NCBI GenBank assembly: GCA_947494715.1
Contig: CANLWG010000004.1
Coordinates: forward strand, 186,001 to 250,000
Direction: 5' to 3'
DNA: 64,000 nt
Origin: an uncultured Flavobacteriaceae bacterium
Lineage (GTDB): Bacteria > Bacteroidota > Bacteroidia > Flavobacteriales > Flavobacteriaceae
In this document: piece after piece, positions 16,258-32,589 of the stretch
Layout of the letters: every line of letters begins with the position of its first letter
Numbering within the stretch: the stretch's first letter is position 1
Position numbers and translations under genes: made by a program
The notes under the pieces: model-generated
What the model was told of the DNA's origin: nothing
Seen by the model: the letters and a program-made list of their open reading frames with translations, nothing else
Databases searched by the model: none

Positions 16258-17697
16258 TTACTTTTTATGGTGCGATGTCAACGCCGCTATCATTCCATTG
16301 GTAATGATATCTTTTAAATTGGTTTCTACCACCTCCTGTAATCCGGAAAATTCAGTGAGATCTTTCCCCCAAAAGGATGTATTCATCAATGTATTTTTGG
16401 TAATTGAAGCGATGTCCCCTGAAGCCCATTGTGCTTTAAAAAAGTCCAGGACTTCGTTGTCATCCTTTAAGGGAATCGATGCTCCGTTTCTTTCCCCTTT
16501 ATAGAAAGCGATTAACGCCGCCAATGAAAACAATAATCTTTTGGGAAGCTCATTTCGTCTGTTGATATATTCCAAAATGGACGGTAGCACCCTTGTTTTA
16601 AATTTAGAAACCGAATTCAACGAAATACTTAGCAATGCGTGCTCCAAATAGGGATTTCTAAATCTATCCAGGACATCATTGGCAAACTGATCCAATTCTT
16701 CCTTGGGTAAATCCAAAGTGGGGCAGATTTCATTGAAAATAGCATCTTTTAGAAAAGCACCTACTGCAGGGTCCTGTAAAGACTCTCGTACTTTATCTAT
16801 TCCATATAAATAGCCCACAGGCACCAACGAGGTATGGGCACCGTTTAATATGCGCACCTTTCGGGTACGGTAAGGTTCCATATTATCCGTAAAGACAACA
16901 TTCAACCCACATTCTTTGGCAGGAAACTCTTGTTGCACGGATTCCGGCGCCTCTATGACCCAAAGATGAAATTGTTCACCTTCAACGATTAGATTATCCT
17001 TATACCCTAGGTCTTGGGTCAGAGTTTCTATTTTATCCCTTGGGTAGCCGGGCACGATGCGATCCACCAAGGTATTGCAAAAGATATTGGCTTCTTCTAT
17101 CCAATCAATGAATTCGTTGCCTAAATCCCAATCATTGGCGTGTTGCAAAGTAATTTTCTTCAAGTTATCCCCATTCCTGTCGATTAGTTCACATGGTATT
17201 ATGATAAGGCCCTTATCCAGATTTCCTTTAAAGATTTGAAACCTTTGGTATAAAAATGCGGCCAGTTTACCTGGGAAACTCTTTTGCGGAGTATCTTCCA
17301 ATCTGTCTGCTTTGGAATACGCTATTCCTGCTTCGGTGGTATTGGAAATGACAAATCGTAAATCGGGATTATCCGCATTGGCCAGGTAATCGGTATAATC
17401 TTCATAAGGATTTATTCCTCTTTGGATACAATCAATAATTTGGTGCTCACTAATTGCTTTTCCGTCTTTAATCCCATTCAAATAAAGAGTATACAGTCCG
17501 TTTTGATCGTTGAGCATTTGGACCATACCTTGTTCTATGGGTTGTACTACCACAACTCCGGCATCAAAATCCGTTTTCCGATTCATTTCATGGATCATCC
17601 AGTCGGCAAATGCCCTAAGAAAGTTTCCTTCTCCAAATTGTAGTATTCTTTCCGTATAGGAGTTTCCGGAAAATGTGCTTCTATTCAATGAATTCAT
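16258..17697 (-). CDS. uxaB: Tagaturonate reductase (UxaB-like)
   Basis: A 479-residue member of the long-chain mannitol dehydrogenase family. The N-terminal block LQFGEGNFLRAFADWMI (about residues 20-36) and the central KVRILNGAHTSLVPVGYLYG are characteristic of UxaB, which reduces D-tagaturonate to D-altronate with NADH. Cytosolic. It is separated by only 11 bp from an altronate dehydratase-like gene, the next step. No uronate isomerase (UxaC) accompanies it, so galacturonate is unlikely to be the source of tagaturonate here. The neighbouring zinc dehydrogenase could supply it from L-galactonate. That connection is inference but each single family call is good. Confidence 0.85.
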   Translation of the reverse strand: MNSLNRSTFSGNSYTERILQFGEGNFLRAFADWMIHEMNRKTDFDAGVVVVQPIEQGMVQMLNDQNGLYTLYLNGIKDGKAISEHQIIDCIQRGINPYEDYTDYLANADNPDLRFVISNTTEAGIAYSKADRLEDTPQKSFPGKLAAFLYQRFQIFKGNLDKGLIIIPCELIDRNGDNLKKITLQHANDWDLGNEFIDWIEEANIFCNTLVDRIVPGYPRDKIETLTQDLGYKDNLIVEGEQFHLWVIEAPESVQQEFPAKECGLNVVFTDNMEPYRTRKVRILNGAHTSLVPVGYLYGIDKVRESLQDPAVGAFLKDAIFNEICPTLDLPKEELDQFANDVLDRFRNPYLEHALLSISLNSVSKFKTRVLPSILEYINRRNELPKRLLFSLAALIAFYKGERNGASIPLKDDNEVLDFFKAQWASGDIASITKNTLMNTSFWGKDLTEFSGLQEVVETNLKDIITNGMIAALTSHHKK

Positions 17698-17708
17698 TTA
17701 CATATTTT

Positions 17709-19361
17709 TTATAAGGAAATTCCTCTTTTCCATGGGATGAAATCCTCTTGACCCAATCGGACCGCGGCCGGAACGGCCTCTCCACTTGCGACCTCAATAA
17801 TATATTCCAAAAGTTCCTCGCCCATACTTTCAATGGTATCTTCACCTGTGATGATGCTTCCCGTGTTAAAGTCGATGATGTCCTTCATACGTTCGCTCAG
17901 GGTATTGTTACTGGATATTTTGATTACCGGGGCTACAGGGTTTCCGGTGGGTGTTCCCAATCCTGTGGTGAAACAGATAACATTGCAACCGGAACCTGCC
18001 AGACCTGTGGTACTTTCAACATCATTCCCGGGCGTGCACAATAAATTAAGCCCTTTTTTTGACACTTTTTCAGTATAATCCAGGACATCGGTTACTGGGG
18101 AGGTACCCCCTTTTTTTGCCGCTCCAGCGGATTTCATGGCATCTGTTATCAATCCGTCTTTAATGTTTCCCGGTGAGGGATTGTTCTTAAAACCAGATCC
18201 CAGGGCGACTGCTTTGGCAGAGTAGGAATCCATTAATTCCGCAAATTTTTTGGCGTTTTCAGACGTTTCACACCGGTTGATAAGCTCCTGTTCCACGCCG
18301 TTGAGCTCTGGAAATTCTGATAATACGGTAGTACCATCCAAAGCAACCAATAAGTCCGATGCATACCCCAATGCCGGGTTCGCCGATATTCCCGAAAAGC
18401 CATCCGAGCCACCACATTCCAACCCCAACACTAGGTGATGTAAAGGAGCAGGCTTTCGTTCCGTCTTATTGGCTTCTATCAACCCTAGAAAAGTCTTTTT
18501 GACCGCTTCTTCAATAAAATGACGTTCACTCTCACTTTTTTGCTGCTCTAGGATATACAAAGGTTTTGAAAAGTTGGGGCTATTTTTTTCTATAGCTTCT
18601 TCCAACAACTTTACTTCTGCATTCTGGCAGCCCAAGCTTAGAACTGTTGCACCGACCACATTGGCATTGGTAATATAGCCCGCCAATAGATTACAAAGTG
18701 TATCGGAGTCCAGACGGAATCCACCGCACCCTCCTTCATGGGTCAAAAACTTAACCCCGTCTACATTCGGGAAAGTACGTGTACGTTTTACATCCTCCGG
18801 GGTCTTCATGATTTCCACGGCTAGCAGATCATCTGTAGTGGCCCCTTTTTTGTATTGATTTATTAGCGTTTCGGTATCCACTATAAAATCTGTTGTGGTA
18901 TGATAGCCGAGAGATTTGGACAAAGAGGATTTTAGTACCTCTACATTTCGGTTCTCACAAAAGACCATAGGAATGACGAGCCAATAATTGGCGGTCCCTA
19001 CACTTCCATCAGCTCTATGGTAACCGTTAAAAGTGCGGTCTTTCCATTTCGAGACATCCGGTGCGTTCCAACTCATCTTTTCTTTGCCCACTGCATATTC
19101 CGAAGAAGCATGTACAACGTTTTCCGTAGTGATGGTCTCTCCTTGGGCAATAGGTTTTATGGCCTTGGCCACCAAAGTACCGTACATGAAAATTTCATCA
19201 CCTACCTGTAGGTCTCTAGTGGCAAATTTGTGCTTTGCCTTGGTTTCACCAACTAGCGGAAAAGTACCGCCAACATGTTCAATAACGGTACCTTTTGGCA
19301 AATCGGCAAGGGCCGCCAATATGTTGTCCTCGGGATGTATCTGTATAAAAGTGTTCGACAT
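17709..19361 (-). CDS. uxaA: Altronate dehydratase family enzyme (UxaA-like)
   Basis: A 550-residue protein with an N-terminal SAF domain (residues 1-90) and a C-terminal galactarate dehydratase/altronate hydrolase domain starting at GYHRADGSVGTANYW. Cysteines in HEGGCGGFR, SLGCQN, LGLECGGSDGFSG and GSGCNVICFTTG may bind the metal. UxaA makes 2-keto-3-deoxy-D-gluconate (KDG) from D-altronate. Members of this family are known to be promiscuous and some act in L-galactose or L-fucose pathways. It is 28 bp downstream of the zinc dehydrogenase and 11 bp upstream of the UxaB-like gene. The product KDG needs a kinase that is not in this window. Confidence 0.85.
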   Translation of the reverse strand: MSNTFIQIHPEDNILAALADLPKGTVIEHVGGTFPLVGETKAKHKFATRDLQVGDEIFMYGTLVAKAIKPIAQGETITTENVVHASSEYAVGKEKMSWNAPDVSKWKDRTFNGYHRADGSVGTANYWLVIPMVFCENRNVEVLKSSLSKSLGYHTTTDFIVDTETLINQYKKGATTDDLLAVEIMKTPEDVKRTRTFPNVDGVKFLTHEGGCGGFRLDSDTLCNLLAGYITNANVVGATVLSLGCQNAEVKLLEEAIEKNSPNFSKPLYILEQQKSESERHFIEEAVKKTFLGLIEANKTERKPAPLHHLVLGLECGGSDGFSGISANPALGYASDLLVALDGTTVLSEFPELNGVEQELINRCETSENAKKFAELMDSYSAKAVALGSGFKNNPSPGNIKDGLITDAMKSAGAAKKGGTSPVTDVLDYTEKVSKKGLNLLCTPGNDVESTTGLAGSGCNVICFTTGLGTPTGNPVAPVIKISSNNTLSERMKDIIDFNTGSIITGEDTIESMGEELLEYIIEVASGEAVPAAVRLGQEDFIPWKRGISL

Positions 19362-19389: not shown

Positions 19390-20409
19390 TTACGATTGAA
19401 AATCAACGGTAGCTTTGATTACGCCATTTTCAGGATCAAGCCAGCTATCAAAATTGGCTATCATATCATTATAGCTTACATTATGGGTAATAAAGGAATC
19501 GATGGGAAATTCGCCTTTTCCCAAAATGGAAATTACGTATTCAAAATCTTCCAGAGTAGCATTTCTGCTACATAATAATGTAGTTTCCTTGGCATGTATG
19601 GCCGGATGGGTAAAAGTAAGCTCTCCCTTGGAAAGACCCACCAAGACATATTTCCCTCCGTGTGCCATGTAGTCGGGTCCGGATTCCAAGGCTCCCTTAT
19701 GGCCGGTAGCGTCAAAAACAACGGTAGCCATATCACCTTTTGTGATTTCCGAGACTTTTTGGACCGCATCAGATCCACCCAATATTGTATGATCAATACC
19801 TATTTTTTCTTTTGCATAATCCAGCCGTTGTTGATTCATATCAATGGCGATTACTCGGGCCCCTGCAATTTGGGCCAATTTCATAATACCTATACCGATG
19901 GGCCCACAACCCACTACAACAATGGTTTCCCCACTTTCCAATTGTGCTCTTCTAATCGCATGCGCACCTATCGCTAACGGTTCTACGACAGCCATTTGGT
20001 CGTCACTTAAATTTTGTGCGGGTATTAAAAGATTTACCGGAACAGAAATACGTTCCTGCATTCCGCCATCCGTATGTATGCCCAGGACCTTAAGACTGGT
20101 ACAGCAATTGGTTTTGCCATTTCTGCAAGCTACACACTGTTTACAGTTTACATAGGGCATGATTACCACATTATCACCCGGTTTTATCCCGTGCGGATTA
20201 TCATCGATTTCGATAACCTGTGTTGCCAATTCATGTCCTAAAATCCTAGGGTACGTAAAAAATGCCTGGTTTCCCGTATAGGCATGTAGATCTGTACCAC
20301 AGATACCTACTTTTTTAACTTTAAGAAGTGCTTCGTTAACCTGTTTTTTAGGTTTGTCCTTTTCCTTTAGGATAAATTCACCTGGCTTCTCACAAACAAT
20401 ATAATCCAT
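19390..20409 (-). CDS. Zinc-dependent dehydrogenase, likely L-galactonate 5-dehydrogenase (LgoD-like)
   Basis: A 339-residue medium-chain dehydrogenase. Catalytic zinc ligands are in GICGTDLH and GHE, the structural zinc cysteines in CKQCVACRNGKTNCC, and the nucleotide motif is VVGCGPIGIG. I start it at the ATG at 20409; the longer frame uses a GTG at 20457 and adds 16 non-conserved residues. The general layout resembles LgoD/YjjN, which oxidises L-galactonate at C5 to D-tagaturonate. Being immediately upstream of UxaA- and UxaB-like genes makes that the most economical role. Other polyol or sugar-acid substrates cannot be ruled out by sequence alone. Confidence 0.72.
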   Translation of the reverse strand: MDYIVCEKPGEFILKEKDKPKKQVNEALLKVKKVGICGTDLHAYTGNQAFFTYPRILGHELATQVIEIDDNPHGIKPGDNVVIMPYVNCKQCVACRNGKTNCCTSLKVLGIHTDGGMQERISVPVNLLIPAQNLSDDQMAVVEPLAIGAHAIRRAQLESGETIVVVGCGPIGIGIMKLAQIAGARVIAIDMNQQRLDYAKEKIGIDHTILGGSDAVQKVSEITKGDMATVVFDATGHKGALESGPDYMAHGGKYVLVGLSKGELTFTHPAIHAKETTLLCSRNATLEDFEYVISILGKGEFPIDSFITHNVSYNDMIANFDSWLDPENGVIKATVDFQS

Positions 20410-20503
20410 TCTTGGGTTTAAAAATTCAACATCGAAAAGAGCGCACCAAAAGGGCACGCTCCGAAATTAAAAAAAACTAACTCAAATTAACTATTTTCTC
20501 CGG

Positions 20504-22057
20504 CTATATCCTAATTTCCAATACATATGCAAAATCCCCAGTTTTTTCTCCCAAATTAGAAACCGAAAGCCCTTTATCGGTTTGATTAAAATCCAGTTTT
20601 GAGCTGCTCCCTAACAGGCTCACATTTTTAATATCCAAATCTTTGGCATATTCACTATCCGTACCCAAAGTTTTTATGTTAATCTTTCCGCTCGAAGGCC
20701 AATCCAACATAATGGCGTATAGTTTATCTCCCTTTTGAGTAAAGCGAATATCCTTAGCAGTAAACCCTTCTTTAACGTTATGCTCGGACATATATCCTCC
20801 TTTTACCTCGGTAGGGCCCTCACCAAAAGTTTTCCAATGTTCGGTGTTATAAATGGCTTCTCCATTTATTTTCAGCCAATTACCTATTTGAAGCAAGGTC
20901 TCCTTTTGATCTTCGGGGATGGTTCCATCCGGTTTTGGACCAACGTTGAGCAACAGGTTTCCGTTCTTTGAAACAATATCTACCAGATCGTCCACAAGAC
21001 TATTGGCCGTTTTGGCCTCTTCATTGGTCACATAGCCCCAAGAGTTCTTTCCGATAGAAGTATCCGTTTGCCAGGGCAGTTTGCGAATGCCCGGAAGTTT
21101 TCCACGTTCCAGGTCATAAATTACCGTCCCCTCGGGAAAGGCTTGGTGGTAGAGGTTTTTATCATTGATCACCACCTCTTTGCCCCATTCAATACCTTTA
21201 TTATAATAGTAGGCCGCTATTTTTGGTCGATACGCCTCAAAATCCGGGATGTCCAAATAGAAATCGAACCAAAGAACATCGGGTCGATAGTTATCAATTA
21301 AATCTATGGTTCGATCCCACCATAATTTTTTAAATTCATCCGATACCGGCTCGGTAACATCTTTTCCCTTTTTGGAGTACAAATCCGAATACTCTGGATC
21401 AACTGTGTCAAAATGATCCTTTTTATTGTAAAAGGACCAGTTGAATGCGTAATGGGATGATGCACCCATAATAAGCCCTTGTTTTCTTCCTTCTGTAAAG
21501 AGTTCGCCAAGTACATCCCGTTTAGGCCCCATATCCATGGCATTCCAACGCGTGGTATTGGATTTATACATGGCAAAACCGTCATGATGGTCAGCAACGG
21601 GGATTACATACTTCGCCCCGGCCTTTTTAAAAAGGTCGATCCAGCTTACAGGGTCGAATTTTTCTGCTTTGAACATGGGGATGAAGTCCTTGTAGCCAAA
21701 TGTTTTTTGGTCGCCCCATTTCTTTTTATGGTGTAAATAAATTTCCGTTGGCCCATCACCCAAGTTTTTAAGTTGCGCCGAAAAATTGGCCGTATCCATA
21801 TACATCTGCCTCGGATACCATTCCGAACCATAGGCCGGGACCGAATACCCTCCCCAATGAATAAAAATCCCGAATTTACTGTCATTGAACCACTCCGGAT
21901 CTTTATAGTTCTTTTTAATAGACTCCCAATTTGGCTCAAAAACAGTAATTTGATTATCCGCGGAAGACTGCGCTACCTGTTTTTCATTTTTACTGCCACA
22001 AGAAAATAGTATTGAAATAATAAGAAAAGAACCAAAAAAATGTTTTGAAATCTTCAT
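20504..22057 (-). CDS. GH29-B alpha-L-fucosidase-like lipoprotein
   Basis: A 517-residue GH29 enzyme with a lipoprotein signal (ILFSC, Cys20). It shows KFGIFIHWGGYSVPAYGSEWY near residue 61, DHHDGFAMYKS at 157-167 and VLWFDF with the presumed nucleophile Asp265. It is a paralogue of GH29-A and GH29-C. The Gly normally following the nucleophile is Phe here. It is the first catalytic gene of the reverse operon, 94 bp or less from the LgoD-like gene and 161 bp after AraC-1. A 12-base sequence upstream (22151-22162) is shared with the GH29-C promoter. Substrate: terminal alpha-L-fucose or alpha-L-galactose on a sulfated glycan. Confidence 0.88.
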   Translation of the reverse strand: MKISKHFFGSFLIISILFSCGSKNEKQVAQSSADNQITVFEPNWESIKKNYKDPEWFNDSKFGIFIHWGGYSVPAYGSEWYPRQMYMDTANFSAQLKNLGDGPTEIYLHHKKKWGDQKTFGYKDFIPMFKAEKFDPVSWIDLFKKAGAKYVIPVADHHDGFAMYKSNTTRWNAMDMGPKRDVLGELFTEGRKQGLIMGASSHYAFNWSFYNKKDHFDTVDPEYSDLYSKKGKDVTEPVSDEFKKLWWDRTIDLIDNYRPDVLWFDFYLDIPDFEAYRPKIAAYYYNKGIEWGKEVVINDKNLYHQAFPEGTVIYDLERGKLPGIRKLPWQTDTSIGKNSWGYVTNEEAKTANSLVDDLVDIVSKNGNLLLNVGPKPDGTIPEDQKETLLQIGNWLKINGEAIYNTEHWKTFGEGPTEVKGGYMSEHNVKEGFTAKDIRFTQKGDKLYAIMLDWPSSGKINIKTLGTDSEYAKDLDIKNVSLLGSSSKLDFNQTDKGLSVSNLGEKTGDFAYVLEIRI

Positions 22058-22218: not shown

Positions 22219-23067
22219 TCACCTTGTAAAACCTGAAGAAAATTTTTTCTGATACACCAAAGGTGAAGACCCCATTATTCTTTTGAATTGTCTATAAAAA
22301 AAGGGAAGACTTTCATAACCGCAGGAAAAACCTATTTGTGAAATAGAATGGTCCGTATCCAACAACATACGTGCGGCCATATTAATGCGGTATTCATTTA
22401 AGAAGGTAAAAAAAGGACGCCCCATCATTTTACTGAAAAAACGGGAAAAGGACTGTTCGGACATATTTACCAGACCTGCCAATTCCTTTAAATAAATTTT
22501 CCGATTGAAATGAATACTTACGAAATCGTGGACCTTTGCCATACGACTGCCGTATTCGGTAGGAATATCATCTGTAAAACTGGCCTCGGAAAGTGTCTCG
22601 TATTTTCGTTTTGATAACTCTACCAACAAAGTCAATAATCGAATATACAGATCATGCCCTTTTAATTGAGGCAGTTCCTTAAATGACTTGATTAACGGAA
22701 GGGTTTCCTTTTTATCAAAAATAATTCCCTTGGAAGCAGTTTTTAACATTTTAAAAATTGATGCCAACTCGGGTACTTTTACGAATATACCTTTGTCCCA
22801 TTGCACCACTACCGATTTGGATTGTCCCTCCAGTTGCACCTGATTTTTCCAACAATGAGGTAAGTTGGAACGGATCAGCACCAATTCACCCGGCTCATAG
22901 GGACCCACATAATCACCAATAAATTTGGTCCCTACACTTTCTTCTATATAGGTCAATTCGTGTTGCGGATGAAAATGCCAAGGGGTTTCAAAATTTTTCT
23001 TCGCAAAGCAAAATCCCGTTATAGTTTGCTGTTGATCCAAATGGATCGGTTCTAAAATGGGCTTCAT
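22219..23067 (-). CDS. AraC-family regulator with cupin sensor domain (AraC-1)
   Basis: A 282-residue transcription factor. The N-terminal half is a cupin-like sugar-sensing domain (WHFHPQHELTYIEE at about 31-44, PGELVLIRSNLPH at about 59-71). The C-terminal 100 residues carry two helix-turn-helix motifs, the second including IGFSCGYESLPFFYRQFKR. It probably controls both the reverse operon following it and the divergent dehydrogenase-esterase-dioxygenase operon that starts 355 bp away. It resembles AraC-2 at 43463-44347 throughout, so the two are likely duplicates with different inducers. No binding site is proven. Confidence 0.9.
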   Translation of the reverse strand: MKPILEPIHLDQQQTITGFCFAKKNFETPWHFHPQHELTYIEESVGTKFIGDYVGPYEPGELVLIRSNLPHCWKNQVQLEGQSKSVVVQWDKGIFVKVPELASIFKMLKTASKGIIFDKKETLPLIKSFKELPQLKGHDLYIRLLTLLVELSKRKYETLSEASFTDDIPTEYGSRMAKVHDFVSIHFNRKIYLKELAGLVNMSEQSFSRFFSKMMGRPFFTFLNEYRINMAARMLLDTDHSISQIGFSCGYESLPFFYRQFKRIMGSSPLVYQKKFSSGFTR

Positions 23068-23422
23068 TACTGGATTTTAAAATATTGGTTTATTCAATGC
23101 TGATTCTTGAATAAAAAGTAGGATAGTTATTATCTTTAATTGTACTTTATTTTAGCTCAAAAACATGAAATTGGGCATAATATATACAGAAAAGTTTATT
23201 TATTGGTCAAAAAAAGAGAAGTATGCTGTTATTTTTCTAGCAATTTTTGCCACGGATGGATAACAATAATGTATAAGAGAATCAAAATGAAAAAAAGTGA
23301 ACTTTAAGATCCTTTTGAACAAGCGTACTTAATTAGCGGAATAAGTTTTTTGTATGCCCAAAATTGGTTAACATAGAACTGTAAATGGAAAACTGATTTT
23401 AAAACTCCAGAAAAGAATAATT
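23068..23422. promoter_or_regulatory. Divergent AT-rich intergenic region between AraC-1 and the dehydrogenase operon
   Basis: No convincing coding sequence in these 355 bp. The region is strongly AT-rich with several T and A runs and separates two divergent transcription units, so it must hold both promoters. I see no perfect inverted repeat long enough to name as an operator and no exact Bacteroidetes TAnnTTTG box that I would trust. Confidence 0.55.
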
Positions 23423-24541
23423 ATGTCCCTACATTCTAAAAGTGCAATTGCTACAGGAGATGGTAATTTTGTTATAGAACAGGTAAACTTGAGCAATCCC
23501 AGGTCTGACGAAGTATTGGTTAAAATAAAGGCGGCCGGGCTTTGCCATACGGACCATGATTCCCTGCATTGGGGAAAGCCTATCGTGATGGGTCATGAAG
23601 GTGCCGGGGTCATCGAAGCGGTAGGTGACCAGGTCAAAAATGTAACCGTTGGTGATTCCGTAATTTTGAATTGGGCCACACCCTGCAGAAGTTGTTTTCA
23701 ATGTGAGGAGGGAAATGAACATATCTGTGAGAATAATTCCCCCGTGGTGGCCGGTGCAAATGGATATACGGAAGGCCATGCCCATTTGGAAGGTACAACC
23801 TGGAAGAATGCACCTATAGAACGCTCCTTCAATATTGGGACCTTATCGGAATATGCCTTGGTGAAGGCCTCGGCGGTGGTAAGGAACCCTTCAAGCAAAC
23901 TCTCTTTTCCTGCCGCCAGTATTATAAGCTGTGGGGTAATGACCGGATATGGTTCCGTAATAAATTCAGCAAAGGTGAAGGAAAATAGTTCTGTTGTAGT
24001 CCTGGGAACGGGTGGGGTAGGACTTAGTGTAATCCAAGGTGCTAAAATCAATAAAGCTTCAAAAATTATAGCTATCGATATCAATGAGCAACGATTGCAA
24101 ATGGCCCAAACTTTTGGGGCTACCCATCTGTTAAAAGCGGACAAAAATGATAAAGGATTATTGGAAGCTGCTGAAAAAGTACGACAAATGACCGACGGGC
24201 GAGGTGCCGATTATGCCTTTGAGTGTACCGCCGTACCCGAACTCGGTGCAGCTCCCCTGGCCATGGTCAGAAATGCAGGAACGGCCGTTCAGGTAAGTGG
24301 GATAGAGCAGGAAATTGTAATTGATATGAACCTATTTGAATGGGATAAGGTGTATATTAATCCCCTATATGGTGGATGTAATCCCGAACGCGATTTCCCG
24401 AAAATCGTGTCCCATTACGAATCAGGAATCCTTAAATTGGATGAAATGATTACCCGAACCTATGCGTTGGAGGATCTCCAACAAGCTTTTGATGATATGT
24501 TGGCAGGAAGGAATGCCAAAGGAGTAGTCCTTTTTGACTAG
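23423..24541 (+). CDS. Class III-like zinc alcohol dehydrogenase
   Basis: A 372-residue zinc dehydrogenase of the class III/glutathione-dependent formaldehyde dehydrogenase type. Catalytic zinc ligands lie in AAGLCHTDH and MGHEGAG, the four structural zinc cysteines in PCRSCFQCEEGNEHIC, and the NAD motif in VLGTGGVGLS. Related dehydrogenases sit next to the cytochrome P450 genes that demethylate 6-O-methyl-galactose in porphyran-degrading flavobacteria. Here no P450 is present, but an esterase and a PhyH dioxygenase follow. A role in disposing of an aldehyde made by the dioxygenase is the working idea. The substrate could also be a different alcohol. Confidence 0.85.
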   Translation: MSLHSKSAIATGDGNFVIEQVNLSNPRSDEVLVKIKAAGLCHTDHDSLHWGKPIVMGHEGAGVIEAVGDQVKNVTVGDSVILNWATPCRSCFQCEEGNEHICENNSPVVAGANGYTEGHAHLEGTTWKNAPIERSFNIGTLSEYALVKASAVVRNPSSKLSFPAASIISCGVMTGYGSVINSAKVKENSSVVVLGTGGVGLSVIQGAKINKASKIIAIDINEQRLQMAQTFGATHLLKADKNDKGLLEAAEKVRQMTDGRGADYAFECTAVPELGAAPLAMVRNAGTAVQVSGIEQEIVIDMNLFEWDKVYINPLYGGCNPERDFPKIVSHYESGILKLDEMITRTYALEDLQQAFDDMLAGRNAKGVVLFD

Positions 24542-24554
24542 AAAAGAAAAACAG

Positions 24555-25343
24555 ATGTTCAGAACTACCGAGTTGTCCGACCCTTGTTTTGAGAATGGAA
24601 ACCTGAGGTTTATAACCGTAAAAACGCCAAATTTGAAAGGACGTGGGGACATTTGTGTATTCGTGCCTCCTTTGGATACTATTGAAAACCTTCCTTTGGT
24701 CATACTTTTACATGGTGTTTATGGTAGTGCATGGGTTTGGTCTCAGAAAGCAGGAGTGCATTTATCCGCTTGGCAAATGATGGAAAATGGAGATATACCC
24801 CCGATGGTTATAGCAATGCCTTCGGATGGACTATGGGGTGATGGTTCCGGGTACGTGCCGCATGGTGGGTTTAACTTTGAAAAATGGATCATTGAAGACG
24901 TGCCGCAGGCAGTGGTAGAAAATATTCCATCGGTCAGTGAAAACTCGTCTTTGTTTATTTCCGGATTGTCCATGGGTGGGTTCGGTGCCTTACGTCTCGG
25001 AATAAAATATAGGGAGAAGTTCAAGGCCATATCCGCACATTCCTCCATAACGGATCTAGAACAGATGCCATTGTTTGTTGAGGAACCCCTAGAAGGATAT
25101 CTTCAAGGAGATGTAATGGAAAACTCAGTATGGTCTATGATCCGCAACAATCCTGACAATTTACCAAAACTTAGGTTTGATTGTGGTACGGAAGACCTAC
25201 TTATAGAATACAATCGAAAATTACACCAACAATTACAGGATTACCATATAGACCACACCTATGAAGAATTCCCCGGTGAGCATGAATGGAAGTATTGGGG
25301 CGAACACATTAAAGATACGCTTAAATTTTTCGGAGATCAATAA
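24555..25343 (+). CDS. Esterase D / S-formylglutathione hydrolase-like alpha/beta hydrolase
   Basis: A 262-residue alpha/beta hydrolase of the PF00756 esterase type. The nucleophile is Ser139 in GLSMGG, the oxyanion region is LLHGVYGS at about 51-58, and the acid and His partners probably lie in GTEDLL and GEHEWKYW. I chose the ATG at 24555, 14 bp after the dehydrogenase stop; an earlier TTG overlaps that gene but adds no conserved residues. S-formylglutathione hydrolases of this fold complete formaldehyde oxidation after a class III dehydrogenase, which this gene immediately follows. A carbohydrate acetyl or other esterase is the alternative. No signal peptide, so it is cytosolic. Confidence 0.8.
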   Translation: MFRTTELSDPCFENGNLRFITVKTPNLKGRGDICVFVPPLDTIENLPLVILLHGVYGSAWVWSQKAGVHLSAWQMMENGDIPPMVIAMPSDGLWGDGSGYVPHGGFNFEKWIIEDVPQAVVENIPSVSENSSLFISGLSMGGFGALRLGIKYREKFKAISAHSSITDLEQMPLFVEEPLEGYLQGDVMENSVWSMIRNNPDNLPKLRFDCGTEDLLIEYNRKLHQQLQDYHIDHTYEEFPGEHEWKYWGEHIKDTLKFFGDQ

Positions 25344-25415
25344 TAGACTTGTATTACATTCTTACAATAGATTATGATTATTAATTAAATAGAAAAAACA
25401 TAAAAACTAGGTATT

Positions 25416-26297
25416 ATGGCATTAGTAAAAGACTTCGCAGATGAACATAGATTGATATCAGACCTTTTTAAACTACCAAGAACAGCAGAGGAGTGGAATC
25501 AATATAGATTGAGTGATGAACAAGTTTCACACTTTCATGAATATGGCTACTTGGCCGGTATTAAAATGTTGGATGACCATCAAGTGGAAGTTTTGCGACA
25601 AGAATTGGCAGAGGTCATTGATCCGGAACATCCTGCACACCATTTGTTCTATGAGTTCCAAAGTAATGAGTCGGAGGATCCCAATTCGGTGTTGTTCCAT
25701 TCCTTGGGACATTGGCGAATTACTCCCGGTTTTCATGATATTTTATGGAATCCCGCTTTTGTAATGGCCGCACATCAACTTTTGGAAAATAGACCCGTTC
25801 GTTTTTGGCACGATCAATTATTCTGTAAGCCGGCCAAACATGGTGGTGTGGTGGCTTGGCATCAAGATTATTCATACTGGACTCGGACCATCGCCATGCA
25901 GCATTTAACCTGCTGGACGGGATTGGACGATGCCTCTGTTGAAAACGGATGTTTGCACTACATTCCTAAAAGTCATAAATGGGGGTTGTTGGACGCACCC
26001 TCATTAGCCGGAGATATGAACGGATTGATGGCGTATCTTAATGAGGAACAGAAAGAACAGTTCAAAAACCCAGTGCCCATCGAGCTCAAAAAAGGATATG
26101 CCACCTTCCACCATCCGTTGATGGTACATGGTTCTTATGAGAACAAATCGGATATAAGCCGTAGGGCCTTTGTCTTGAATGTTTTTGCGGACGGTACGAT
26201 AAGTAATACCGATGATGAGCTTTTGGCCGGTGTTCCACATATCCCAAAGGGAAACAAAATGGAAGGCAAATTTTTCCCGTTATTGTTTGAAGGCTAG
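25416..26297 (+). CDS. PhyH-family Fe(II)/2-oxoglutarate dioxygenase
   Basis: A 293-residue protein of the phytanoyl-CoA dioxygenase family. The iron triad is visible as His149 and Asp151 (WHQDYS) with the distal His238 (MVHGSYEN), and an Arg (249 or 250) suited to bind 2-oxoglutarate follows. The residues needed for catalysis are thus intact. No signal peptide, so it acts in the cytosol on an imported small molecule. It is the third gene of the operon after the dehydrogenase and esterase, 72 bp downstream. Such enzymes can hydroxylate methyl or methylene groups, including O-methyl groups, releasing formaldehyde. That fits its partners but is not shown. Confidence 0.85.
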   Translation: MALVKDFADEHRLISDLFKLPRTAEEWNQYRLSDEQVSHFHEYGYLAGIKMLDDHQVEVLRQELAEVIDPEHPAHHLFYEFQSNESEDPNSVLFHSLGHWRITPGFHDILWNPAFVMAAHQLLENRPVRFWHDQLFCKPAKHGGVVAWHQDYSYWTRTIAMQHLTCWTGLDDASVENGCLHYIPKSHKWGLLDAPSLAGDMNGLMAYLNEEQKEQFKNPVPIELKKGYATFHHPLMVHGSYENKSDISRRAFVLNVFADGTISNTDDELLAGVPHIPKGNKMEGKFFPLLFEG

Positions 26298-26310: not shown

Positions 26311-27153
26311 TTACTTAATAGGTTCTAGAGTATATGCCCTTACCCAATCGTAATAGGTAGTGTTTCTTGAATCATCTACCAATTCATCCGGTGTTGGCGG
26401 AGTTTCCCAATTATAGGTTTCGGTGACCAAATGCATATACATTGGGCGGTAAAAAGGGTCTTCCCTTATGGCCGTACTTGGATTGATGGTATACACGAAT
26501 TTACCATCCAAATAAAAATGAAGAGTGGTGGCATCTACCCACCAACAACCATATACATGGTAGGTCTCATTGGCCGGAGGGTCAATTTTAGCTCCGGCCC
26601 CCGGTGCCGAGATATACTTCTCTTTGCCGTCGCAAGGCGTATCTATAAAGTGGGCATTTGATTTCATAGTGGTCCTAAAGTCTCCCGCCCTTTTTTGCTG
26701 GCCTACGATTTCAACAATGTCCAACTCTTGTTGCTCCGTAACACAGCCATTTTTTAGTCTTTTGTTCTTTAACCAAAATGTGGATGACATAGAGATACCG
26801 GAGGCCTTTATACGGGATTCATAATAGCCATAATGTGCATCCCGTGCCACGGATGCAACTGCCCCGCCTGCAATGTTATAAATACTATCACCCTTCAGAA
26901 CCGAGTTTTTTATTCGAAGATTGCCGTCTTTTACCGAAACTGAATAAGCCCTAAAAGTGGCCGGGGGTCTACCGTTTACCCAGTAGGGCGAACGATCGTA
27001 CCATTTTTTGGAATCTATTTTTGAGCCCTCGAACTCGTCCGAGAACTTTTCGTTGACAATCCATTGATAGCCCTTGGGAGGTTCTGGCGTTTGTGCGCTT
27101 AGATGAAAACCGAAAATCAGCAAGGTGATATAGAAAAAATTTCGCATGTTCAT
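26311..27153 (-). CDS. GH16 endo-galactanase (agarase/porphyranase-type)
   Basis: A 280-residue GH16 enzyme with signal peptide (cleavage near LSA-Q, residue 20). The catalytic block ELDIVE sits at about residues 141-146, giving nucleophile and acid/base glutamates. The early segment with SDEFEGSKIDSKKWYDRSPYW and NGRPPATF is typical of marine beta-agarases and porphyranases, and differs from kappa-carrageenases. It cleaves internal beta-1,4 linkages of a red-algal galactan. It starts immediately after the GH29-C stop codon, so both are co-transcribed. It has no extra binding module or secretion tag and is likely surface or periplasmic. Subfamily (porphyranase, agarase or furcellaranase) is not resolved. 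Confidence 0.87.
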   Translation of the reverse strand: MNMRNFFYITLLIFGFHLSAQTPEPPKGYQWIVNEKFSDEFEGSKIDSKKWYDRSPYWVNGRPPATFRAYSVSVKDGNLRIKNSVLKGDSIYNIAGGAVASVARDAHYGYYESRIKASGISMSSTFWLKNKRLKNGCVTEQQELDIVEIVGQQKRAGDFRTTMKSNAHFIDTPCDGKEKYISAPGAGAKIDPPANETYHVYGCWWVDATTLHFYLDGKFVYTINPSTAIREDPFYRPMYMHLVTETYNWETPPTPDELVDDSRNTTYYDWVRAYTLEPIK

Positions 27154-28728
27154 TTAGCTTTTAGGTGTAATTTTAAGTACAAAGGCATGTTCCCCGACTT
27201 TTTCCGAAGGGAAGTCAACATGCAGTGCATCGTCATTGATTTTAAAATTCAAATTTTCCGGATATCCTAGCAATTGAATGCTACCTATTTCTTTCTTGCC
27301 TATATGATGATTTCCTCTTTTCAAACTTTCTAACCGTACAGTTCCTTTGGGCCAGTCCAATACTATAGCGTATAATATTCCATTCTTTGTTGTATATCTA
27401 ATATCTTCTGCCGTGTTATCAGGATTTTCCTGTTCGCTCAAATGGCCCTCAACGACCTTGGCAGGGCCTTCTCCATAAATTTTCCAAGGTCTTGTGCCAT
27501 AAATGGCCTCACCATTTTTACCAAGCCAAGCTCCAATTTCGAGCAAACGTTCTCTAACTGGTCTGGGAATTTCCCCGTTGGCCTTAGGGGTGATGTTCAA
27601 GAGTAGACATCCATTTTTACTTACAACATCCACTAAAAAATCAATGATTCTATTGGCACTCTTGTAATCGGGATTACTGATGTGGCTCCAAGCTTTCCAA
27701 TCGATGGAATCGTCCGTCAACCAAGGAAAATCTTTCATCTCACTCATTCTGGCCCGTTCTACATCCAGAACTGCGGTTTCTTTGGCAAAATCATAGAATT
27801 TATAGGTGGCGACTACTTCCTTGTTTTTTTTGGAAGCATTGTTATAATAGTATGATAGGAATTCCTTTCTGTAAGCTTCACCGATAACGTCCATTTTATT
27901 ATCGAACCAAACCAGATCGGGATTGTATTTGTCCACAATTTCCTTTAGTCTGTTTAGCCAATCTTGATTAAATTTTTCATCGGCTGTGGGATAATAACCA
28001 TCAAATCCCTTGTCCAGATCATGAGTGGATGGAGGGTATTTGAAATCGCTCTTCTTCATTTTTGGACCGTAAAGATCGGCATAGTTGGGATCCGCTGCAT
28101 CCGTAGTTTCATCCCATGTCGGATACCAACCCAACAACCAATGGCGATGAAAAGTGGCCACGAATTTCATGTTCCGCTTTTTAATTTCCTGGGACAGTTC
28201 ACCCATAATATCTCTTTTCGGTCCCATATCTTTGGCGTTCCATCGAGTCAGGTCACTGTCCCACATGGCAAATCCATCCGCATGTTCGGAAACCGGACCG
28301 GCAAATTTGGCACCTGCTTTTTCAAATAGATCGGCCCATTCCGCCGCATTGAATTTTTCAGCTTTGAACAGAGGCACTAAATCCTTATACCCAAATTCGT
28401 TGAGGGGACCATACGTCTTCACATGATGTTCATAATATTTTTTACCCAACTCATGCTCTGGATTATTATCGTTACAATACATCCAATGGGAATACCATTC
28501 GTTTTCGAACTCGGGAACGGAATAGGGCCCCCAATGGCAATAAATTCCAAACTTGGCATCCCTAAACCATTCCGGGGTTGTATGTTGCCTTAGTGATTCC
28601 CAATCGGCTTGGTACTCTTTATTTTGACCAACCATAGGTCTTATCACCAAAACAAGAAATAACAGTGTAAGCGCAATTTTAGCGGTATGTTTACCGGCAC
28701 TTGAAACAAAGGAGAACAAAATATTCAT
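27154..28728 (-). CDS. GH29-C alpha-L-fucosidase-like enzyme with altered HHDG motif
   Basis: A 524-residue GH29 protein with an N-terminal hydrophobic signal (residues 17-34). It has KFGIYCHWGPYSVPEF near residue 59, GPKRDIMGEL at 169-178 and LVWFDN with presumed nucleophile Asp276. The sugar-binding HHDG found in GH29-A and GH29-B reads HADG here (residues 149-152), removing one of the conserved His residues that contact the sugar. This may widen or change the specificity. It is cotranscribed with the GH16 gene, which directly follows its stop. Its promoter carries the 12-base element also present in front of GH29-B. True fucosidase activity should not be presumed. Confidence 0.86.
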   Translation of the reverse strand: MNILFSFVSSAGKHTAKIALTLLFLVLVIRPMVGQNKEYQADWESLRQHTTPEWFRDAKFGIYCHWGPYSVPEFENEWYSHWMYCNDNNPEHELGKKYYEHHVKTYGPLNEFGYKDLVPLFKAEKFNAAEWADLFEKAGAKFAGPVSEHADGFAMWDSDLTRWNAKDMGPKRDIMGELSQEIKKRNMKFVATFHRHWLLGWYPTWDETTDAADPNYADLYGPKMKKSDFKYPPSTHDLDKGFDGYYPTADEKFNQDWLNRLKEIVDKYNPDLVWFDNKMDVIGEAYRKEFLSYYYNNASKKNKEVVATYKFYDFAKETAVLDVERARMSEMKDFPWLTDDSIDWKAWSHISNPDYKSANRIIDFLVDVVSKNGCLLLNITPKANGEIPRPVRERLLEIGAWLGKNGEAIYGTRPWKIYGEGPAKVVEGHLSEQENPDNTAEDIRYTTKNGILYAIVLDWPKGTVRLESLKRGNHHIGKKEIGSIQLLGYPENLNFKINDDALHVDFPSEKVGEHAFVLKITPKS

Positions 28729-29046: not shown

Positions 29047-30216
29047 ATGAACATAGCCAAGATAGAGCCATTTGTAATCGTAAATAATCTGGACACTCCA
29101 TTTTACTTTTCTCAATGGCAGTACGATATCAGAAAAATTTGTCTTGTAAAGGTTACCTTGGAGGATGGTACTTACGGTTGGGGCGAGGGCTATGGGCCGG
29201 CAAGTGTTATAAAAGCAGGCATAGAGTTTTTCACCCCTTTTTTGTTGGGTCGTGAGGCACTGGGTCATGAGGTCCTTTGGCAAGAAATGTACCGTCGTTC
29301 GTTGGACTACGCCCGTAGCGGAACCCTTCAAGCCGCAATAAGCGCCATAGATGTAGCCCTTTGGGACATTAAAGGCAAACTTTTGGGACAACCGGTTTCT
29401 GTTTTGTTGGGCGGAATAAAAAATCCGATTATAGAACCTTATGCGACGGGTCTATATTTTACCAAGGCCGATAACCTGGAAGAAGAACTGGTAGCTGAGG
29501 CTTTACGCTACAAAAAAGAAGGTTTTAAAGCCATAAAGATGAAAGTGGGGCTTGGTATCAAGAAAGACGTCAAGTATGTTGCTGCGATTCGAAAGGCAAT
29601 AGGGGGAGATATACGATTAATGATCGATGCCAACCATGCCTACAATTATAGGGAAGCCTTTGAACTGGCACAGAAAGTGGCCTTGTATGATATTTCGTGG
29701 TTCGAGGAACCAGTTTCCCCAGAGGACTATGAGGGATATGGAAGGTTACGTGAGAACACTACCATGCCCATTGCAGGCGGAGAATGTGAATACTTAAAGT
29801 TTGGCTTCAAGCGTTTGCTGGAGAACGAATGCGTGGACATAGTTCAACCTGATATTTGCGCTAGTGGGGGACTAACCGAAGCTAAGCGTATTGCTACCTT
29901 GGCCCAAGCCTACAGTAAAGATGTAATACCCCATACTTGGGGTACATGGATCGCCATTAGTGCCGCTGCCCACTTTGTAGGGAATTTGGACGAAAATCCA
30001 GGTAGAATGTACAACGACTTGCCTACAATGGAGTTGGATCGGACCGAGAATGCTCTGCGTGATATGGTCACCCTGCATAGCCTAAAAATAGAGAATGGTC
30101 TCTTGCATGTTCCAAAAACTCCGGGATTAGGAGTGGATGTGGACATGGGTGCCCTCGAAAAATATAGAGAACGCGAAATAGATAAAGATGAGGCAAGTTT
30201 TGAAATTCGGCCATAA
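29047..30216 (+). CDS. Enolase-superfamily 3,6-anhydro-D-galactonate cycloisomerase (DauB-like)
   Basis: A 389-residue enolase-superfamily enzyme of the mandelate racemase subgroup. Visible residues: the K-x-K motif at Lys164/Lys166, metal ligands Asp194, Glu220 and Glu246, Asp269, and His296 in PHTWGTW. It lacks a signal peptide and is cytosolic. With the three following genes it reproduces the carrageenan-type pathway in which 3,6-anhydro-D-galactonate is converted to 2-keto-3-deoxy-D-galactonate. A plain galactonate dehydratase (DgoD) is the alternative, but the partner aldehyde dehydrogenase and the GH127/GH117 surroundings favour the anhydro-sugar. The next gene overlaps its end by 29 bp. 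Confidence 0.8.
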   Translation: MNIAKIEPFVIVNNLDTPFYFSQWQYDIRKICLVKVTLEDGTYGWGEGYGPASVIKAGIEFFTPFLLGREALGHEVLWQEMYRRSLDYARSGTLQAAISAIDVALWDIKGKLLGQPVSVLLGGIKNPIIEPYATGLYFTKADNLEEELVAEALRYKKEGFKAIKMKVGLGIKKDVKYVAAIRKAIGGDIRLMIDANHAYNYREAFELAQKVALYDISWFEEPVSPEDYEGYGRLRENTTMPIAGGECEYLKFGFKRLLENECVDIVQPDICASGGLTEAKRIATLAQAYSKDVIPHTWGTWIAISAAAHFVGNLDENPGRMYNDLPTMELDRTENALRDMVTLHSLKIENGLLHVPKTPGLGVDVDMGALEKYREREIDKDEASFEIRP

Positions 30217-31642
30217 GAAGTTATATATAGGAGGTGCCTTGGGAGAAGCTTCGAATAAAGAATCCTTTGAGGTTATTTGCCCCGCTGACGAAAAACCAAT
30301 TGCCACTATAGCCTGGGCAGGGAGGGAAGACACCGATCGAGCTCTTTTTTCGGCAAAGGAAGGTTTTGAGCTATGGTCCCGTCTCCCTCTGGAAGAGAGA
30401 TTACAATGGACAAGGAAGTTGAGAGACAAGATATCCGAAAAGAGCGACCTGCTCCGTGAAAGTATCATGTATGAAATGGGCAAGACCTGGGAAGGAACCG
30501 AAGAAGACCTTTCCAGTATTATTAATTCCTTGACCTATTATTCCGAAGAGATTGTAAAAAGGAAGGATATTCCTATTGCGGACAAGGACGGTACACACAA
30601 ACACCGTATCATCTCTCAACCCCTGGGTGTGGTCGTAGCGTTTTTGGCCTATAATTTTCCCTTATTAAATCTCGGTTTCAAGTTGGGTCCTGCATTGGCG
30701 GCCGGGTGCAGTATTATCTTAAAGCCATCTGAATTTTCACCGTTGTCCGCCTATTTGATCGGGGAAATCTGTACGGAAATCAATTTTCCAAAAGGAGTGG
30801 TCAACATACTTTGTGGAGATGTGGAAAATGTAGGCATTCCACTTTGTGAAAGTAAAGTGCCAAGTTTGATTACTATGATCGGCTCTACGGAGACCGCACA
30901 AAAGCTTATTGCACAGAGCAGTAGAACATCAATCAAAAGGTATAGTATGGAATGTGGTGGCAACGCACCTTTCATTGTTTTTGAGGATGCGGACATAGAC
31001 TTGGCGATAACCCATGGTGCAGCACTGAAAATTGGAAATACAGGCCAGATTTGTGTCGCTCCCAATAGATTCTATATTCATGAATCGGTCATTGATAATT
31101 TTATTGAAGGAATTACCGGAATATTTGAAAATGTAAAAATTGGATTTGGCCGAGAGAACAATCCTGATATGGGACCTTTGGCCAATAAACAATCCGTGGA
31201 AAAAGTATATCACATTGTTAAGGATGCCCTTGCGGAAGGTGGTGAATTGGTATATGGAGGAGGCCCCATAGATGGCCAAGGATATTATTTTGAACCTACG
31301 GTAATACGGATGCCGGATAACAAAGTAGAGATTGTTCAACGGGAAATCTTTGGCCCCGTTGCGCTAATACTTCCATTTTCAACCAAGGAAGAGGTTTTGG
31401 AATTGGCCAATAGCACGGAAGCGGGTCTGGCCTCCTATGTGTATTCAAAAGATGAATCGACCCTCTCGTATTTTATTGAAAATTTGGCATTTGGAGAAGT
31501 ACATATAAACGGATTGAAGTTCGATATTTATCTTCCTCATGGCGGGATAAAAAATAGTGGAATCGGTGTGGATTGTTCTACCTTTGCCCTTGAAGATTAC
31601 TTGATCAAAAAGAGGGTAACCAGAGCATTGAACACGGTATGA
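30188..31642 (+). CDS. NAD(P)-dependent 3,6-anhydro-D-galactose dehydrogenase (DauA-like aldehyde dehydrogenase)
   Basis: A 484-residue aldehyde dehydrogenase. The general-base Glu255 lies in MECGGNAP and the catalytic Cys289 in NTGQICVAPNR. Asn156 in AYNFP is the family residue next to the active site. The sequence resembles succinate semialdehyde-type dehydrogenases, the group that oxidises 3,6-anhydrogalactose to its acid. The start overlaps the cycloisomerase by 29 bp and the end overlaps the kinase start by 4 bp, so the set is translationally coupled. A different sugar aldehyde cannot be excluded by eye. Confidence 0.82.
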   Translation: MRQVLKFGHKKLYIGGALGEASNKESFEVICPADEKPIATIAWAGREDTDRALFSAKEGFELWSRLPLEERLQWTRKLRDKISEKSDLLRESIMYEMGKTWEGTEEDLSSIINSLTYYSEEIVKRKDIPIADKDGTHKHRIISQPLGVVVAFLAYNFPLLNLGFKLGPALAAGCSIILKPSEFSPLSAYLIGEICTEINFPKGVVNILCGDVENVGIPLCESKVPSLITMIGSTETAQKLIAQSSRTSIKRYSMECGGNAPFIVFEDADIDLAITHGAALKIGNTGQICVAPNRFYIHESVIDNFIEGITGIFENVKIGFGRENNPDMGPLANKQSVEKVYHIVKDALAEGGELVYGGGPIDGQGYYFEPTVIRMPDNKVEIVQREIFGPVALILPFSTKEEVLELANSTEAGLASYVYSKDESTLSYFIENLAFGEVHINGLKFDIYLPHGGIKNSGIGVDCSTFALEDYLIKKRVTRALNTV

Positions 31643-32589
31643 GCTTCACTTCCCATTTTATAAGCTGCGATTGGGGTACTACCAATTTCAGATTGCGATT
31701 GGTAGAGACGGAAACACTTCGGGTCATCTGGGAAAACCGGACAGATCAAGGTGTAAAAAAGTGCCATGCAGCTTTTAGAGCCCAAACGGAATTGGACCAA
31801 AAAAATCTCTACTTGGATCATTTGGTTGGAGAGCTTCAAAAGCTTCCTAACGAGCATCGAAATCATCCTATAGTTTCATCCGGCATGAGCTCTTCAAATA
31901 TAGGTTTGTACGAACTGCCCTATGCCGACCTCCCTTTTGACCAAGACGGGAATACCCTCATTCATAAAAATATACCTATAGCCCATGGCCAAGATCTATT
32001 GCTCGTTTCAGGGGTACGAAGCAAAACAGGTATGATGCGTGGGGAAGAAGTTCAGGCCATAGGCTTAGGAGAGTATTTGGATTCCTACTCCGAGGGAGTG
32101 CTTTTACTCCCGGGCACTCATAGTAAGCATATTTCATATAGGAAGGGGAGCTTTTATGCCCTGAAAAACTTCATGACAGGGGAGCTTTTTGAGGTACTGG
32201 GCAATAAAAGTATTTTGGCGAATTCTATTGAAACGGCAGAATGGAATGCCCAAAGTAAAAGGGCCTTTCTTGAAGGATTCCATCTGGGATTAATGGAGGG
32301 ATCAACTTCCAATTTATTGGGCATCCGCGCGAGGCATGTTGTTGAGGATAAGAGTAAGAAGGATAATTATTTTGGGTTAAGTGGGCTTTTGATAGGGGAT
32401 GAGTTGTCCTATTTAAGGAATGTTGGGGAAAACGTTTTTTTGGCGGCTCCGAATGCCATTTTCGAATTATACAAAACAGGGCTCGAAACTTTTATCGCCC
32501 CTGATAAATTGATACTTTTGAACGATACCATTCTTGAACGGGCCCTGCTAATTGGCCAAAGAAAAATGCTTCAACTTCATGCAAAATAA
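31639..32589 (+). CDS. 2-dehydro-3-deoxygalactonokinase (DgoK/DauC-like)
   Basis: A 316-residue member of the DgoK family (PF05035), recognised by the N-terminal phosphate-binding CDWGTTNFRLRL and the block GMMRGEEVQAIG near residue 130, plus LLPGTHSKHI. It phosphorylates 2-keto-3-deoxy-D-galactonate at C6. The ATG overlaps the preceding stop (ATGA). It gives the third step of a four-gene route ending in pyruvate and glyceraldehyde 3-phosphate. KDG from the altronate branch is a C4 epimer of this substrate, and a dedicated KDG kinase is not present in the window. Confidence 0.9.
   Translation: MSFTSHFISCDWGTTNFRLRLVETETLRVIWENRTDQGVKKCHAAFRAQTELDQKNLYLDHLVGELQKLPNEHRNHPIVSSGMSSSNIGLYELPYADLPFDQDGNTLIHKNIPIAHGQDLLLVSGVRSKTGMMRGEEVQAIGLGEYLDSYSEGVLLLPGTHSKHISYRKGSFYALKNFMTGELFEVLGNKSILANSIETAEWNAQSKRAFLEGFHLGLMEGSTSNLLGIRARHVVEDKSKKDNYFGLSGLLIGDELSYLRNVGENVFLAAPNAIFELYKTGLETFIAPDKLILLNDTILERALLIGQRKMLQLHAK

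Follow-up and report, generated by a model that had tools for sequence, protein, structure and literature searches.

A PhyH-family dioxygenase as a candidate sugar O-demethylase in place of a cytochrome P450 in a porphyran locus of an uncultured Flavobacteriaceae bacterium

The window analysed here is a 64,000-nucleotide stretch of DNA from an uncultured Flavobacteriaceae bacterium (assembly GCA_947494715.1, contig CANLWG010000004.1, positions 186,001 to 250,000), and the system in question is an operon encoding a zinc alcohol dehydrogenase (ADH), an alpha/beta-hydrolase esterase (EST) and a PhyH-family Fe(II)/2-oxoglutarate dioxygenase (PhyH). Comparison with related genomes suggested that, in this marine seaweed degrader, a different oxygenase appears to have replaced the cytochrome P450 with which its relatives strip methyl groups from algal sugars. 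PhyH may use Fe(II) and 2-oxoglutarate to O-demethylate methylated sugars, giving a product that would require the same ADH–EST pair as that of the P450, and we hold the chances of this proposal to be about even. It is based on gene content, intact catalytic residues, the alternation of the two oxygenases around ADH–EST, and the scar of a deleted P450 cassette. The reaction would be an O-demethylation releasing formaldehyde, and the substrate would most likely be a galactose that carries a methyl group, derived from a galactan of the porphyran type. The operon and the region in front of it contained the following features.

22219–23067, minus strand: AraC-type regulator, divergent from the operon (Pfam HTH_18 and Cupin_2)
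23068–23286, no strand: intergenic region matching the AraC–P450 gap of locus L012 of Ulvibacterium marinum (pairwise alignment)
23287–23324, plus strand: left side of the scar, the first 38 nt of a demethylation-locus-type P450 gene (alignment to L012)
23333–23344, plus strand: right side of the scar, the last 12 nt of a ferredoxin reductase (FdR) gene (alignment to L012)
23423–24541, plus strand: ADH of the FoADH/ZoADH group (PDB 8h2a 632 bits, 8h2b 597 bits; residues)
24555–25343, plus strand: EST (Pfam PF00756)
25416–26297, plus strand: PhyH, putative sugar O-demethylase (PF05721, invariant triad, AlphaFold2 model, Foldseek)

The three open reading frames (ORFs) were intact and lay on the same strand, with 13 bp between the ADH stop and EST and 72 bp between EST and PhyH. 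Their Pfam matches were ADH_N/ADH_zinc_N, Esterase (PF00756) and PhyH (PF05721, E 5.3e-36). A preliminary description made from the sequence alone had reported three genes in one direction that diverge from an AraC gene, and both statements agreed with the ORFs and the Pfam matches. Its Ser139 of the esterase motif GLSMGG was also found, counted from the ATG at 24555, although the ORF list starts at the TTG at 24534. None of the three proteins had a secretion-type N-terminus as judged by eye, which makes an imported sugar the probable substrate. Promoter and terminator scans gave no signal exceeding shuffles. The dN/dS values against L012 were 0.04 for ADH, 0.07 for EST and 0.03 for PhyH (dS 0.8–1.7), which indicated purifying selection on all three genes.

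The relation between the two oxygenases was followed in two samples. Relatives' contigs were scanned for ADH and the best 80 of 221 loci were taken, with at most 10 kb on each side, which makes this sample ADH-selected; the P450 state of these loci was assigned by protein clustering. The set of 397 genomes of the family was not ADH-selected, and the cut-offs used in it were E 1e-60 for PhyH, 1e-100 for ADH and 1e-80 for the P450. PhyH was present in 41 of the 397 genomes, ADH in 41 and the demethylation-locus P450 in 28. Every P450 genome contained ADH (28/28), and every remaining ADH genome contained PhyH (13/13), compared with a base rate of 34/369 in genomes without the P450 (hypergeometric p 3e-15, uncorrected for kinship). 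PhyH occurred in 13/13 of the ADH genomes lacking the P450 vs 7/28 of those with it (Fisher p 4.4e-6), or, counted by genus, in 10/10 vs 6/23 (p 8.7e-5), where one genus can count on both sides. In nine of the 13 genomes PhyH lay within 10 kb of ADH, and in four it did not; two of the 13 (G153 and G374) had a divergent PhyH with 54% identity, which also adjoined ADH–EST. A shared niche alone predicts equal rates of PhyH, so the rates of 13/13 and 7/28 speak against it.

The 80 ADH loci comprised 39 with the P450, ferredoxin (Fdx) and FdR, 19 with PhyH, one with both and 21 with neither. Among the 21 genomes with neither oxygenase at the locus, a hand-chosen set, the P450 was found elsewhere in eight, PhyH elsewhere in seven, both in none and neither in six. 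A relative of EST stood near ADH in 79 of the 80 loci, and in the exception (L076) the contig stops 307 bases past ADH. The best ADH tree required eight switches between P450 and PhyH over 73 labelled rows, a count that excludes the row with both and the six rows with neither. This was a quick tree with weak branches, in which the long rows L078 and L084 were flagged and L082 (split ORF) was omitted; its well-supported branches alone gave at least five changes of the PhyH label and at least six of the P450 label. Orthologous operons were found as P450-Fdx-FdR-ADH-EST (L260), as P450-Fdx-FdR-ADH-EST-PhyH (L012, L261 and L262) and as ADH-EST-PhyH (the window and L013/L263), and in the closest relative, L012, all six genes formed a single operon. 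PhyH was located 5′ of ADH in L071, L075, L083 and L191. In the 14 kb examined of Flavobacterium flevense (L069), it followed EST in the slot occupied by the P450 in its kin. In G212 and G405, apparently close kin, PhyH lay in a sialidase locus and ADH–EST elsewhere, with no P450. Many of the loci shown with the trio carried sulfatase, glycoside hydrolase (GH) or sugar-acid genes.

The preliminary description had noted the lack of a P450 in the window; this was right, though a 38-nt remnant of one was present. The AraC–ADH gap measured 355 bp. On its left, 34 of 38 nt were identical to the start of the L012 P450 gene, with a stop at codon 7 (alignment score 56, against a best score of 27 in 1000 shuffles). 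On its right, 10 of 12 nt were identical to the end of FdR and continued to 23385 as FdR–ADH intergenic sequence, the whole stretch aligning to L012 9911–9962 with a score of 59. About 2.7 kb of L012 (7208–9910) was absent between the two sides. This indicated that an ancestor carried the P450 cassette and that this lineage deleted about 2.7 kb. The ancestral operon would then have been P450-Fdx-FdR-ADH-EST-PhyH, from which the cassette was deleted while ADH-EST-PhyH was kept. No match to the P450 start scored above 16 in L013. The source genome (G000) contained no P450 of the demethylation-locus type when searched with the L012 P450 (E 1e-80). It held one other P450, the neighbours of which looked housekeeping-like by eye and the nearest solved structures of which include LUT5 and CYP4B1. 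The idea in the preliminary description that a PhyH dioxygenase replaces the P450 was thus supported genomically, by alternation at the level of genomes, loci and trees, but not biochemically.

The PhyH triad H149, D151 and H238, which the preliminary description had called intact, was invariant together with R249/R250 across the 16 rows of alignment A1, including the window row. The PF05721 match, the H-x-D...H triad and the arginine for 2-oxoglutarate identify a PhyH dioxygenase; we take R249/R250 to provide this 2-oxoglutarate-binding arginine. The AlphaFold2 model, built from a 39-row alignment, had a pLDDT of 91.6, and Foldseek matched it to PhyH-type oxygenases with at most 29% identity among the 50 matches listed. 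The fold, the Fe triad and the 2-oxoglutarate arginine are common to SnoK, MysH, EvdO2, proline hydroxylase H11, PHYHD1 and RESC14; none of the 50 matches listed is a catabolic sugar O-demethylase, unlike the role proposed for PhyH. The closest solved fold among these matches was RESC14 (TM 0.90, 29% identity), which belongs to the RNA-editing complex of trypanosomes.

As to mechanism, cytosolic PhyH would hydroxylate a methylated monosaccharide at its O-methyl carbon, and the resulting hemiacetal would break down to formaldehyde and the free sugar. The P450 reaction has the same outcome, but PhyH would need no ferredoxins. ADH and EST would then process the product that the two oxygenases have in common. 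2-Oxoglutarate-dependent O-demethylases of alkaloids in opium poppy hydroxylate an O-methyl group and release formaldehyde. This is the same type of reaction, but these are plant enzymes of another superfamily branch with alkaloid substrates. Oxidative demethylation of 6-O-methyl-D-galactose by a P450 with ferredoxin and ferredoxin reductase is said to have been described by Reisky in 2018. The window shares with that system of Zobellia and Formosa the ADH group, the esterase partner and the galactan locus, and it bears the scar of a P450 cassette of the type that accompanies this ADH in relatives; it differs in having no P450, ferredoxin or reductase, in the PhyH gene after the esterase, and in the adjoining L-galactose catabolic genes.

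The ADH matched PDB 8h2a and 8h2b, which were confirmed as FoADH and ZoADH, with 632 and 597 bits, the next best solved structure reaching 185 bits. Residues C41, H42, T43, H58, C88, C91, C94, C102, F136, C170 and A270 were kept as in these two enzymes. They include the zinc residues C41, H58 and C170 with C88/C91/C94/C102, in agreement with the complete zinc cysteines of the preliminary description. The close full-length match and the identical zinc and pocket residues made the ADH a member of the FoADH/ZoADH group. In the excerpts of Brott et al. (2023; PMC10033563), the genes of FoADH and ZoADH adjoin those of a P450, a ferredoxin, a reductase and an esterase. ADH and EST of the window therefore belong to a known demethylation neighbourhood. 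The same excerpts state that a Zobellia galactanivorans ADH knockout was impaired in growth on 6-O-methyl-galactose, and that FoADH and ZoADH were inactive on formaldehyde, alone or with glutathione, mycothiol, bacillithiol, cysteine, CoA or ergothioneine. The pair thus remains a standing puzzle, as cells need the ADH to grow normally on the methyl sugar but the enzyme has no formaldehyde activity. If two unrelated oxygenases both require ADH–EST, the substrate of the pair is narrowed to what both reactions share.

This inactivity leaves room for another explanation, namely that both oxygenases release one and the same small molecule other than formaldehyde. It could be, for instance, a different aldehyde derived from some other alkyl substituent, to be reduced or oxidised by ADH and hydrolysed by EST. 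The product shared by both oxygenases need not be formaldehyde, a point that also tells against our own proposal. However, the P450 reaction was reported in the excerpts of PMC10033563 to yield D-galactose and formaldehyde in equal amounts, and we consider this explanation unlikely.

The genes around the operon were relevant to the substrate, and to two further explanations.

11547–12872, minus strand: FucP-type L-fucose/H+ symporter (TIGR00885 above cut-off)
12932–13726, minus strand: L-fucose dehydrogenase-type short-chain dehydrogenase/reductase (SDR), may act on L-galactose (NF052481 above cut-off)
13733–14563, minus strand: amidohydrolase, sugar lactonase-like (NF052480 267 bits, under the cut-off of 400)
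16258–17697, minus strand: tagaturonate reductase (NF002969 above cut-off)
17709–19361, minus strand: altronate/galactarate dehydratase family (Pfam GD_AH_C)
19390–20457, minus strand: zinc dehydrogenase (ZnDH), putative L-galactonate 5-dehydrogenase (from its pathway position)
20504–22057, minus strand: GH29 near the exo-alpha-L-galactosidase BpGH29 (PDB 7snk 443 bits, 7ljj 434 bits)
26311–27153, minus strand: GH16 beta-porphyranase, convergent with PhyH (PDB 4awd 265 bits)
27154–28728, minus strand: GH29 (fucosidase/alpha-L-galactosidase family; Pfam)

L-Galactose is broken down via tagaturonate and altronate. FucP, the SDR, the lactonase-like amidohydrolase, ZnDH, tagaturonate reductase and altronate dehydratase would fit an L-galactose breakdown module of this kind. 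The predicted beta-porphyranase and exo-alpha-L-galactosidase, the sulfatases and the L-galactose genes characterised a porphyran/L-galactose locus, with specificities assigned from sequence, and one GH43-like protein of the window matched anhydro-alpha-L-galactosidase structures. This setting suggests a methylated galactose as substrate. The candidates are 6-O-methyl-D-galactose of porphyran and 4-O-methyl-L-galactose, named for agars in the excerpts of PMC10741836; any specific substrate, taken singly, is a good deal less than probable.

The same module underlies the explanation that the site of hydroxylation by PhyH is a sugar carbon rather than an O-methyl group. Attack on C6 of L-fucose, for instance, would yield L-galactose, and the neighbouring genes could break this down via tagaturonate and altronate. 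The six genes of the module were frequent in PhyH loci; of 51 distinct PhyH loci, 18 (and L160 in addition) carried altronate dehydratase, which was found in none of the 39 loci in the first set that had the P450 but no PhyH, and ZnDH, AmidoH or UxaA also occurred near PhyH without ADH–EST (L158, L162, L163, L170, L173 and L176). L160 (G080), whose PhyH was 82% identical, is absent from the PhyH locus counts and the PhyH tree. Hydroxylation of L-fucose, however, gives no account of why ADH–EST accompanies either PhyH or the P450. The whole module was present in L260, a P450 locus without PhyH from outside the first set, and in 80 hand-chosen genomes ZnDH was found in 33 of 41 with PhyH, in 12 of the 14 that had the P450 but not PhyH, and in 4 of 25 others. 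We consider this explanation quite improbable. That PhyH catalyses a required step in L-galactose breakdown was rejected, because 8 of the 41 PhyH genomes lacked ZnDH.

The distribution of ZnDH, a galactan-associated gene that is common in PhyH genomes and in P450 genomes but scarce elsewhere, would also agree with a shared diet, in which ADH–EST, the P450 and PhyH travel together in degraders of red-algal galactans with no common chemistry. Besides the unequal rates of PhyH with and without the P450, the co-occurrence of unlinked ADH–EST and PhyH in G104, G211, G212 and G247 stands against it, and it seems very unlikely. The same low probability applies to the full version of the preliminary description, in which PhyH releases formaldehyde and a class III-like ADH and an S-formylglutathione hydrolase-like esterase oxidise it to formate via a thiol adduct. 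Thiol-dependent formaldehyde oxidation, as in frmAB (class III ADH and S-formylglutathione hydrolase), likewise pairs a zinc ADH with an alpha/beta-hydrolase esterase, and both genes occurred in 79 of the 80 loci, but the two window proteins were far under the curated NCBIfam cut-offs, ADH with 223 bits against 543.95 for TIGR02818 (class III/glutathione-dependent formaldehyde dehydrogenase) and EST with 38.3 bits against 281.7 for TIGR02821 (S-formylglutathione hydrolase), which leaves both labels of the preliminary description weak. The nearest PDB chains of EST were other esterases. The role of the pair in turning formaldehyde into formate is unsupported because FoADH and ZoADH, with which the window ADH shares the pocket residues C41, H42, T43, H58, F136 and A270, failed the formaldehyde assays cited above. 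The demethylase idea now has more genomic support than the preliminary description could offer; the formate role has gained none.

Several observations weigh against PhyH as an O-demethylase coupled to ADH–EST. In the 397 genomes, 21 of the 41 with PhyH lacked ADH at E 1e-100, so PhyH does not need the pair. Ribulose monophosphate enzymes as a substitute for ADH in these genomes were rejected, with HxlB in 1 of the 21 (12/397 overall). The PhyH tree, which omits four repeat loci and L160, mixed proteins with and without ADH, with 13 changes over 52 rows. In 277 genomes of the phylum, PhyH matches were found in 28, namely the window's own, nine at 60–80% identity (one of the same family) and 18 distant ones at no more than 35%, and none of the nine had ADH or EST within 1.5 kb on either side. 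PhyH also occurred in sialic-acid and other loci without signs of methyl sugars; an identity of 74–81% to the window PhyH across such settings would be odd if the substrates differ. Both oxygenases occurred together in seven genomes, which means that PhyH does not simply replace the P450 for one substrate. Neither oxygenase was found in six of the 80 ADH genomes, all titled as metagenome-assembled genomes. The L012 P450, which served as the P450 query, was taken for the demethylase from its neighbours. The loss of the P450 may be recent, in which case the retention of ADH–EST afterwards is undatable and purifying selection is no proof of later use. The common product of PhyH and the P450 is deduced solely from the genomic alternation. 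Finally, the convergent GH16 was rejected as a 6-O-methyl-porphyranase (GH16_14), as its MSSTFW motif keeps Thr, not Gly, at the position of Ser129/Thr137 of PorA/PorB, placed in this analysis from the excerpts of PMC12316285. This weakened 6-O-methyl-D-galactose as a candidate.

The sialic-acid setting could itself be one of demethylation. Locus L168 combined PhyH with a NanA-like lyase, an epimerase, a SASA esterase and an NANM-symporter; L171 had several L168 clusters in common together with GH20, and L172, L185 and L257 shared clusters with L168/L171. According to the excerpts of PMC3509529, starfish sialic acids bear 8-O-methyl groups, and PhyH in these loci would fit their O-demethylation. 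In a wider reading, the PhyH family would constitute a second class of catabolic sugar O-demethylases in Bacteroidota, one that works without a P450. Its members would act on methylated galactoses where they lie in loci for red-algal galactans, possibly on 8-O-methyl sialic acid where they lie in sialic-acid loci, and would share with the P450 the dedicated ADH–EST pair for the released C1 unit; we put this forward tentatively, as possible but less probable than the proposal for the window itself. Porphyran contains up to 28% 6-O-methyl-galactose (PMC10033563, excerpts). The P450 route was the only removal of this group described in the portions of the literature searched, the excerpts of PMC12316285 expect an undiscovered demethylation route in anaerobes, and no dioxygenase demethylase for algal sugars was found in the open-licence literature searched (among the titles and abstract starts listed). 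If the proposal is true, there would be a second way of demethylating under aerobic conditions, by a dioxygenase that needs no ferredoxin and is simple to assay and use.

Some further gene associations were observed. The sialic-acid utilisation loci with PhyH orthologues (L168, L171, L172, L185 and L257) also carried a BNR protein resembling sialidases and an amidohydrolase of the creatininase family. In L159, L166 and L175, PhyH and an FAA-hydrolase gene adjoined proline racemase and DAO genes, a set resembling hydroxyproline breakdown. A hexulose-6-phosphate synthase-like gene (L259:2082–2780; TIGR03128 147 bits, cut-off 200) was located 6.4 kb from PhyH. Beside the L-galactose module of the window, 29047–33226 encoded an MR/MLE enzyme very close to PDB 5olc (713 bits), an ALDH, a DGOK kinase and an aldolase, presumably a 3,6-anhydrogalactose-type pathway. 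A 372-residue protein without a Pfam match (35192–36310) was encoded with a 4-bp overlap with an FAD-dependent oxidoreductase gene (33393–35195). A corrinoid methyltransferase set was found beside P450-ADH-EST in L028, L029, L030, L034, L035 and L073, and two of its genes beside PhyH-ADH-EST in L083. Judged from one representative each, with NCBIfam scores below cut-offs, it comprised two MtaA/CmuA-like URO-D proteins, an MtgC/MtbC-like corrinoid protein, CobW and a B12 reactivation-like domain, and it is possibly a third demethylation route in the same loci.

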